From the NCBI GenBank assembly GCA_013911715.1, contig JACEST010000002.1, forward strand, positions 1 through 51,938: 51,938 bases of DNA. Direction: 5' to 3'. Both the position numbers and the translations under genes were made by a program. The DNA is from Sphingopyxis sp. GTDB taxonomy: Bacteria > Pseudomonadota > Alphaproteobacteria > Sphingomonadales > Sphingomonadaceae. The notes below the pieces were generated by a model that did no database searches, was not told the DNA's origin, and was given only the letters and a program-made list of their open reading frames with translations. Below, one piece after another: positions 46,733 through 51,611 of the stretch (position 1 is the stretch's first letter; each line of letters begins with the position of its first letter).

Positions 46733-46865
46733 CCCGTTCGCCCTGAGGAGGGGCTGAGCCTGTCGAAGCCCCATCTCGAAGGGCTTTGCGCGCTGGCCGG
46801 CCCTTCGAGACACCATTTTGCCCTTCGACAAGCTCAGGGACAAAATGGCTCCTCAGGGGGAACGG
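46733..46865. repeat. Compound palindromic repeat (CTGAGCCTGTCGAAG / CTTCGACAAGCTCAG family)
   Basis: cccgttcgccctgaggaggggctgagcctgtcgaag ... cccttcgacaagctcagggacaaaatggctcctcagggggaacgg. Confidence 0.75.
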
Positions 46866-46976: not shown

Positions 46977-47348
46977 TCAGCTGGCGTCCGACCGGTTGTC
47001 GCGGCGCTCGGCAATACGCGCCGATTTGCCAGTGCGTCCGCGCAGATAATAGAGTTTCGCACGGCGCACCGCGCCCTTGCGAACAACAGTGATGCTGTCG
47101 ATGTTGGGCGAATAGAGCGGGAAGACGCGCTCGACGCCTTCACCGAACGACATTTTGCGCACGGTGAAGTTTGATCCCATGCCCTTGTTCGAGCGCGCGA
47201 TGCACACGCCTTCGAAATTCTGGACGCGGGTGCGTTCGCCTTCGACCACTTTCACGCCAACCTTCAGCGTGTCGCCGGGACGGAATTCGGGCAGCGCCTT
47301 GGCGGCCTTGGCAATTTCTTCGGCTTCAATCGTCTGGATGAGGTTCAT
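46977..47348 (-). CDS. rplS: 50S ribosomal protein L19
   Basis: [56 protein letters not shown]. Confidence 0.97.
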
Positions 47349-47354
47349 GACCCT

Positions 47355-48191
47355 CTAGTCCTTATCTTCACGCCGCGCGCCAGAGGCAGGTCGGGCCCGA
47401 GCGCCGATATGGCGCTCCCAAAGGTCCGGCCTGCGTAACCGTGTATGATCCTCCGCCTGCCGTTTCCGCCAGGCCGCGATCTTCGCATGATCCCCCGATC
47501 GCAGCACTTCGGGGATCGTGCGCCCTTCCCACTCAGCGGGCCGGGTATAGTGCGGATATTCGAGCAAACCGTGTTCAAACGATTCGTCATCCCCACTGGA
47601 AGCCGCGCCCATTACGCCGGGAAGCAGCCGAATGCAAGCATCGAGCAGCATCAGCGCCGCGACCTCGCCTCCCGACAAGATGATGTCGCCCATGCTGACC
47701 TGTTCGATGGCCGGGCGGGCGTCGAACAGCCGTTCGTCAAGGCCTTCGAACCGCCCGCACAGGATGATGACGCCGGGGCCTTGGGCCAGTTCGCGGACGC
47801 GGGCTTGGGTGATCGGGGTGCCGCGCGGCGTCATGGCGAGGATGGGGAGAGTCTCCCTCTCCCCTTCAGGGGAGAGGGCCGGGGAGAGGGGGAGTCCGGT
47901 CGAACCAGTTGACTCCCCCTCTCCCAACCCTCTCCCCTGAAGGGGAGAGGGCTTCTTGGTCGCCACCGCATCCACCGCCCGTGCCAGCACATCGGCGCGC
48001 AGCACCATCCCCGCCCCGCCGCCCGCCGGTGTATCATCCACCGTGCGGTGCTTGTCGGTGGCAAAATCGCGAATGTTGGTGGCCGCGCACGACCAAATCC
48101 CTTCGCTCAGCGCGCGCCCCGCCATGCTGTGTCCCAGCGGCCCGGGGAACATGTCGGGATAAAGCGTGAGGATGTGGGCGGCGAAAGTCAT
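47355..48191 (-). CDS. trmD: tRNA (guanine-N1)-methyltransferase carrying an in-frame palindromic-repeat insertion
   Basis: [28 protein letters not shown]...[20 protein letters not shown]...[56 protein letters not shown]. Confidence 0.95.
47855..47951. repeat. Palindromic repeat inside trmD
   Basis: ccctctccccttcaggggagagggccggggagagggggagtc (47855-47896) and gactccccctctcccaaccctctcccctgaaggggagaggg (47911-47951) are near-perfect inverted copies. Confidence 0.92.
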
Positions 48192-48192
48192 G

Positions 48193-48525
48193 TCATTCCA
48201 AGTTGTGCCGCTGCATCGCTACTTTTCGGTTCCTCAACCGCCACCGGAGAGCACAGAAATTGATCATGAGGATCATGGCAAACCCAACGCCGTCCTCGAC
48301 ACGCCAGCCATTAATCCAATCGAACGGTGAATGCGTTTCGCTTGTGAATAAGGACGCCAGCATAAGAACGGAGAGCGGTGCGATCGACGCAATTCCCACA
48401 GCCAAAAGCCAATGCAGCGCCAGCCGCTGCCTTTGAGGCATGATAGCCGAAAGCGCCAAGCTGATCGGCAACGTGAATGCGGCCACAATGAAAAATCCCG
48501 AGATCCAATCCGAATCAATCGCCAT
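48193..48525 (-). CDS. Small hypothetical membrane protein
   Basis: [60 protein letters not shown]... has three predicted TM segments. Its start overlaps the vapC stop (ATG/TGA). Confidence 0.65.
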
Positions 48526-48899
48526 CACATCGCCCAATTCTCAACCTTCAGCCCCGGCACATCGGCGAAATCACTTTCATTCTCGGTTACCATGATCAGG
48601 CCATGCGAGAGAGCGTGGGCCGCAATCAAGCGATCATAGCTGGCCCGCCGGAATGGCAAGCTGGTGTATGCCAGCGCCGCCTTGAAGTCGAAATCCAGTA
48701 CCGGCACTTCTTCGACAAAGGCCTGCAGTTGCTCCACTGCGGGCGGCTTGTTGTTGACCGAACCATAGGCGACCTCGGCATAAGCAATCGCCGACGTTAC
48801 CATGTCGCCAACATCGCATTCGGCAGCGCGTCGCACGACGCCTTCGTCGTCGTTCATGACCAGCGCTATGATGACGTTGCTGTCGAGCAAGTATTTCAA
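48525..48899 (-). CDS. vapC: PIN-domain toxin VapC
   Basis: MKYLLDSNVIIALVMNDDEGVVRRAAECD...SYDRLIAAHALSHGLIMVTENESDFADVPGLKVENW. Confidence 0.9.
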   Translation of the reverse strand: MKYLLDSNVIIALVMNDDEGVVRRAAECDVGDMVTSAIAYAEVAYGSVNNKPPAVEQLQAFVEEVPVLDFDFKAALAYTSLPFRRASYDRLIAAHALSHGLIMVTENESDFADVPGLKVENWAM

Positions 48900-49261
48900 T
48901 CGTCATCGCCCCGCGCATATTTCTCCCAACGAAGCGGGCGCTCGTCGAACATGCGATCTTGCGGTTCGATGTACCGCAGGTTCGTTGCCGAGCCAGCGAC
49001 TTTGGCAATGTTGAACTTTCGCTTTGGTTGCTCAATTGGTTCATAGCTCAAGAACTGCCCGTCCTCGATGACCAGTTCCATTTCCATGCCTGCGGTCAAT
49101 TTGGTTCCCGCCGGAATTCGAACTGCAAGCGAATTGCCCGACCGAAAAACCTTGGTCGTGTGCGTTTGTTTGTCGATGCGCTCCAACCAAGGCATCGAAC
49201 CGGCCAAACGTTCGAAATCGAACTTTCGCCGTTCTTCGTTGAGATGGTTCTTGTTGGTCAT
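48896..49261 (-). CDS. vapB: AbrB/SpoVT-type antitoxin (VapB)
   Basis: HTTKVFRSGNSLAVRIPAGTKLTAGMEMELVIEDGQFLSYEP is a swapped-hairpin AbrB domain. Coupled to vapC. Confidence 0.85.
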   Translation of the reverse strand: MTNKNHLNEERRKFDFERLAGSMPWLERIDKQTHTTKVFRSGNSLAVRIPAGTKLTAGMEMELVIEDGQFLSYEPIEQPKRKFNIAKVAGSATNLRYIEPQDRMFDERPLRWEKYARGDDD

Positions 49262-51512: not shown

Positions 51513-51611
51513 CCCCAACCCCGTTCGCGCTGAGCTTGTCGAAGCGCTGTCCTTGCCTTCGTGAAAGAAAGAACGGTCCTTCGACATCGACCCGTCGGAA
51601 GACAGGACAGA
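51513..51611. repeat. Repeat related to the CGCTGAGCTTGTCGAAG family between rpsP and rimM
   Basis: cccgttcgcgctgagcttgtcgaagcgctgtcc ... gtccttcgacatcgacccg. Core shared with 46733-46865. Confidence 0.5.

Follow-up and report, generated by a model that had tools for sequence, protein, structure and literature searches.

The intracellular bacteria Rickettsia and Wolbachia are the best-known hosts of palindromes that lie in frame within conserved genes (PMC2229807 and its references). Rickettsia palindromic elements (RPEs) are described in PMC2229807 and PMC10969869 as dispersed palindromes of ∼100 to 150 bp that lie in frame inside conserved protein genes. Caulobacter CIRs are alphaproteobacterial repeats of ∼110 bp with two inverted-repeat arms; PMC2229807 reports that they are never intragenic and have stops in all frames. 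REP/REPIN sequences with RAYT transposases, and MITEs, are short, palindromic, dispersed, and nonautonomous, but mainly extragenic.

The element considered here belongs to Sphingopyxis sp., a member of the Sphingomonadaceae, and lies in a stretch of 51,938 nucleotides that we call the window. The original prediction placed a 97-bp palindrome with arms of ∼41 bp at 47855-47951 inside trmD, as an in-frame insertion adding ∼34 residues. Both arms were found at that place, and the inserted peptide and its borders are exactly those predicted. The features of the locus are as follows.

47355-48191, minus strand: trmD, tRNA (guanosine(37)-N1)-methyltransferase, 278 amino acids, with in-frame insert (NCBIfam and Pfam matches).
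47854-47953, minus strand: palindromic repeat unit of ∼100 bp, family A twin-hairpin (ends set by alignment to other genomic copies).
47855-47896, plus strand: left arm of the long inverted repeat (arm pairing and RNA fold).
47911-47951, plus strand: right arm of the long inverted repeat (arm pairing and RNA fold).
47855-47878, plus strand: sub-palindrome CCCTCTCCCCTTCAGGGGAGAGGG, a hairpin by itself (inverted-repeat analysis).
47928-47951, plus strand: second sub-palindrome CCCTCTCCCCTGAAGGGGAGAGGG (inverted-repeat analysis).
47850-47951, minus strand: codons 81 to 114, the 34-residue inserted peptide (ORF translation and linker comparison).
47820-47831, minus strand: TPRG, residues 121 to 124, counterpart of the AdoMet cover loop SPQG (alignment to PDB TrmD chains).
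46977-47348, minus strand: rplS-like ORF downstream of trmD, free of repeats, included in the local control (sequence and gene order).

TrmD is essential in well-studied bacteria. The window protein matches the NCBIfam equivalogs NF000648 (4.9e-85) and TIGR00088 (2.4e-72), both above cutoff, as well as Pfam PF01746; it has the conserved columns and, as TPRG, the SPOUT cover loop, which reads SPQG in known TrmD proteins (PMC5372744). The trmD ORF stays open across the whole palindrome, and four of the six reading frames of the element are open.

The span of 97 bp is the paired part of the ∼100-bp unit: pairing of 47855-47883 with 47923-47951 (29 nt, 93%) and of 47882-47896 with 47911-47925 (15 nt, 100%) combines into a single stem of ∼41 bp. 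Alignment of copies gives the family A layout, for the window unit at 47854-47953, as (A)GCCCTCTCCCC-TTCA-GGGGAGAGGG-TTGGGAGAGGGGG-(variable centre)-CCCCCTCTCCCC-GG-CCCTCTCCCCTGAAGGGGAGAGGG. Within the window, the 24-mer half-palindrome is unique to this element, with 0 occurrences expected from shuffling. The RNA strand of the element folds at −97.7 kcal/mol (z = −9.3), a value that no shuffle equaled, bearing out the expectation of a very stable mRNA hairpin. By eye, no target-site duplication is evident at the borders of the element, and an Rfam search of it returned only subgathering matches, mostly to microRNA models that fit any long hairpin.

Two other observations concern the window. 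Upstream of trmD, two small overlapping ORFs at 48525-49261 (minus strand) resemble, on reading their sequences, a PIN toxin of the VapC type with a cognate antitoxin and may encode such a pair. Arms CTGAGCYTGTCGAAG, resembling those of a family described below (family E), occur as a facing pair downstream of the rplS-like ORF (46754-46837) and singly at 51530-51544, with 0.05 expected by chance.

Of the described systems, RPEs are the nearest precedent in mode of working, likened to our element by form and placement. At 97 to 100 bp, the window's long hairpin falls within the RPE size range, and, as had been suggested from the window, it resembles them as a dispersed hairpin of ∼100 bp found in frame in conserved genes: here TrmD, PheS, and GlyS, along with copies where no gene is listed (plasmids). 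It differs in that its host, judged by relatives, is a member of the Sphingomonadaceae and in that, among related species, the same loop of a single gene is filled by several unrelated families. The element also resembles CIRs in form, and its copy in the window contains three GANTC sites. We rejected membership in that group: GANTC is absent from 13 of the 16 other fetched matches and from 10 of the 13 other family A trmD inserts, and the window element is in frame in trmD with most of its frames open. Across the window, GANTC is strongly avoided (56 sites versus 197 expected), and 3 of the 56 lie in or at the edge of the 100-bp element. Family E resembles paired REP arms in a general way; the window element shares with REP/REPIN sequences and MITEs a short, dispersed, nonautonomous palindromic form and differs from them in being intragenic.

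In the protein, the insert (residues ∼81 to 114) lies between a helix (66 to 77) and a strand (117 to 126) that runs into TPRG; TPRG sits ∼6 residues past the insert. An AlphaFold2 model (mean pLDDT 67; 38 sequences) predicts the insert as coil, mostly at pLDDT <50 (residues 85 to 105), which is consistent with the surface loop originally proposed; since confidence is also low in some conserved stretches (53 to 61 and 195 to 218), the model supports the position and disorder of the insert and nothing further. Another TrmD of solved structure, PDB 7kff, has a natural long loop of ∼40 extra residues at the very position occupied by repeats here; we know of no repeat origin for it.

A mobile palindrome had been predicted, and the host assembly (1.86 Mb, 157 contigs, 68% complete) contains four other full or near-full family A copies (C97, C81, C113, and C105), a partial one (C133), and fragments. 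One of these copies lies in frame inside another gene, the host pheS (G000:C113:3417-3521; L021 and L295), between HDTFYM and LLRTHTS. Thirteen plasmid records have matches, none under a listed gene in a gene table that is incomplete.

To assess recurrence, we drew evenly 160 Sphingomonadaceae genomes, each ≥90% complete. Sequence-confirmed inserts of 29 to 45 residues occur at the same TrmD loop in 18 of them, leaving out G230, which has a contig break at the locus; with named records included, the distinct carriers number 34. Cultivated carriers include Citromicrobium bathyomarinum IOP_28, Novosphingobium jiangmenense 1Y9A, Parerythrobacter lacustris RS5-5, and Erythrobacter sp. WG. Eighty noncarriers fetched by coordinate all have short linkers. 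The site is empty in ∼89% of family genomes, and most of the GTDB genus to which the window belongs likewise lacks an insert. The variable loop lies between ...DVLxxAxD and PILAMTPRG, and its length in 199 distinct sequences has two peaks: 33 to 38 residues in 164, 43 in 1, and 65 to 93 in 34. The long linkers are repeat derived, and the objection that most sphingomonad TrmD proteins share a homologous loop of nonrepeat origin therefore fails. Outside the family, a class-wide draw yielded just two longer TrmD loops (G278 and G249), neither palindromic looking, and one incomplete match (G343).

The fragmentary nature of the host metagenome assembly, and the difficulty of assembling palindromes in general, raise the question of an assembly artifact at the repeat. 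We give this next to no chance: the reading frame continues intact on either side, and in-frame trmD inserts occur in the single-contig genomes G110, G167, G164, G178, G102, and G229, which makes assembly error unlikely in general.

The trmD-loop inserts, which we assigned by reading their sequences, belong to at least four unrelated palindromic families. Family A comprises the window's twin-hairpin and its variants, including a B-type (CCCCTTCCC...); family C reads CCTCCCCGG...GGGGACC...CCCCTCCACCA...GGTCCCCCTCCCC; family D, a small one, contains TCTCGAGCGAAGTCGAGA; and family E contains GTTCGTGCTGAGCCTGTCGAAG and its partner arm. Families A, B-type, C, and E are multicopy in the carrier genomes tested: with representative inserts as queries, matches per genome ranged from 0 to 57 for A, 3 to 14 for B-type, 7 to 72 for C, and 3 to 54 for E, numbers that exceed copy counts because both strands of one palindrome may be counted. 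The zero for A came from querying G130 with the window element; G130's own variant found further copies. We considered a uniform reading-frame rule, as families C and E each show a single phase throughout (10 and 6 inserts, respectively). In L077 and L167, however, family A-like repeats are read in different phases, and we therefore claim no general rule. L077, a Sphingorhabdus MAG, has ∼25 extra TrmD residues on top of the palindrome.

Recurrence at one TrmD loop by unrelated families, which the original prediction did not contain, is well supported and identifies the loop as a recurrent landing site for repetitive DNA. In the openly licensed literature, we found no description of palindromes in sphingomonad trmD. 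Our best explanation, to which we assign a probability of roughly 0.8, is that nonautonomous dispersed palindromes insert often and that those keeping the frame persist in a tolerant surface loop. A dispersed Sphingomonadaceae palindrome would enter trmD, probably by a transposition-like mechanism, with the reading frame kept; in-frame, stop-free insertions would survive because ∼30 to 60 extra flexible residues would be tolerated in this loop, which follows the helix next to GGGAGM and precedes the strand running into the AdoMet cover loop. With several repeat families active in these genomes, unrelated ones would have struck the same loop again and again, and occupants would be lost or replaced over time. 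Tolerance is the likeliest cause of occupancy, and the enzyme with the insert presumably remains active.

We scanned 132 trmD loci for inverted repeats with arms of ≥16 nt, a strict setting that misses weaker inserts. Thirteen strong repeats fall in the 100-bp bin of the trmD loop, and none from −700 to 0 or from 200 to 900; besides those in the loop bin, the single strong repeat between −700 and +900 is that of L112, in the first bin. Other strong repeats lie ∼1 kb downstream, at and just after a conserved position that is probably a terminator following rplS, and farther away. Many insertions by several families within a few codons, with none in neighboring genes, could reflect a true target hotspot, in which the insertion machinery favors a DNA feature of the trmD loop whatever the protein tolerates. 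We consider this quite improbable, as the site is shared by families whose ends differ and we identified no common target motif or duplication, and as PheS, GlyS, and a terminase-like protein hold repeats at other sequences; such repeats fit a protein-tolerance filter better than a DNA hotspot.

The identities of PheS and GlyS were confirmed by NCBIfam. Among the fetched copies, GlyS has in-frame inserts in G110 (L267, G110:C1:1760320-1760421) and G229 (L262, G229:C1:1823390-1823500). At one site, after KYFVCT, the insert is of family A in both genomes; at a second, after EEGI, one insert is of family C and the other reads PAKAG...PASAGMT. In two genera, a protein resembling the terminase large subunit shares the site of a palindromic insert (L264 in G179 and L270 in G229). 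This protein, which had no NCBIfam match and was identified by reading its sequence, possibly derives from a gene transfer agent.

PheS was considered as a second hotspot and rejected. A split PheS match occurs in 19 other family genomes, and in the 18 that were read no loop was recognized as belonging to families A to E: most loops are longer or variable, and G213 proved to be a contig split with a normal loop. Among the genomes read, family A in PheS is confined to the host. Some PheS loops (L293, L299 to L302, L304, and L306), from several genera, share a strongly conserved nucleotide stretch, CCTCAAGCAGCGAAGCGGTAGGC (ASSSEAVG), at the site of the host palindrome.

The history of the site was examined on a quick maximum-likelihood tree of TrmD only, with the loop removed and no mixture model (199 sequences, 34 carriers), on which gain and loss are not distinguishable. 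Occupancy changes 21 times, 18 times with branches of support <80 collapsed, and 8 times with those of <95 collapsed; the corresponding numbers of family-labeled changes are 28, 26, and 13. Clustered occupancy could also stem from one ancient insertion into the loop that recombination with other copies of repeats has since modified, and L053 seems by eye to be a family A remnant fused to family E. This history is distinctly unlikely, given that empty sites prevail across the family, including most members of the window's genus, and that at least 8 changes remain when only branches with support of ≥95 are used.

Occupancy is more clustered than chance: 21 changes, where 500 shufflings of the labels gave a mean of 31.8 and never fewer than 26. 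The family found at the site is distributed almost at random on the tree: identity among carriers changes 14 times versus 16.7 in shuffled data (P = 0.07), and 13 versus 13.4 times without the Novosphingobium group (P = 0.48). In five pairs of sisters, with support of 83 to 99, the two members differ in family: the window (A) and G012 (E), L154 (A) and L158 (C), L156 (A) and L152 (C), L157 (A) and L151 (E), and L167 (A) and L168 (E). Mixed occupants occur within the GTDB genera coded g3, g5, and g32. Clustered occupancy with turnover of identity is not explained by tolerance alone. It might arise if occupancy itself were selected, with a strong hairpin in the coding part of trmD mRNA, or a flexible loop of any sequence, being useful, for example, through slower translation or less read-through into rplS, so that only the occupant changes. 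The five mixed pairs would suit such selection, as would the strong hairpins kept in most inserts: 25 of 34 fold with z < −3, while control trmD segments average 0.16.

We nevertheless regard selected occupancy as unlikely. Four inserts are in frame yet have weak hairpins (L053, z = 1.3; L168, −0.6; L159, −1.3; and L161, −1.7), which argues against a strict hairpin requirement; such sequences are to be expected if a palindrome that was formerly mobile decays gradually while the protein frame must be maintained. Moreover, ∼89% of family genomes manage without an insert, and the same clustering is expected from clades rich in active repeats. Exaptation of the palindrome, as originally suggested, is likewise not supported: nothing points to a gain of function, and the hairpins of several inserts are weak. 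A further reading, which we regard as rather unlikely, is that certain lineages keep the trmD loop filled as a slot whose occupants are exchanged, with selection or a local mechanism acting on the hairpin or the flexible insert and not on its sequence.

In tolerating dispersed palindromes at this loop, as we favor, the Sphingomonadaceae provide an experiment that nature has replicated: in these mostly environmental, partly cultivated bacteria, a single site in a core tRNA enzyme has undergone some 8 to 21 changes involving unrelated repeat families, and empty relatives serve as controls. It thereby becomes possible to test whether such insertions are no more than tolerated and how proteins gain length from mobile palindromes. 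Loops of TrmD, PheS, and GlyS may be repeat derived, which calls for caution in annotation, alignments, and inhibitor work.
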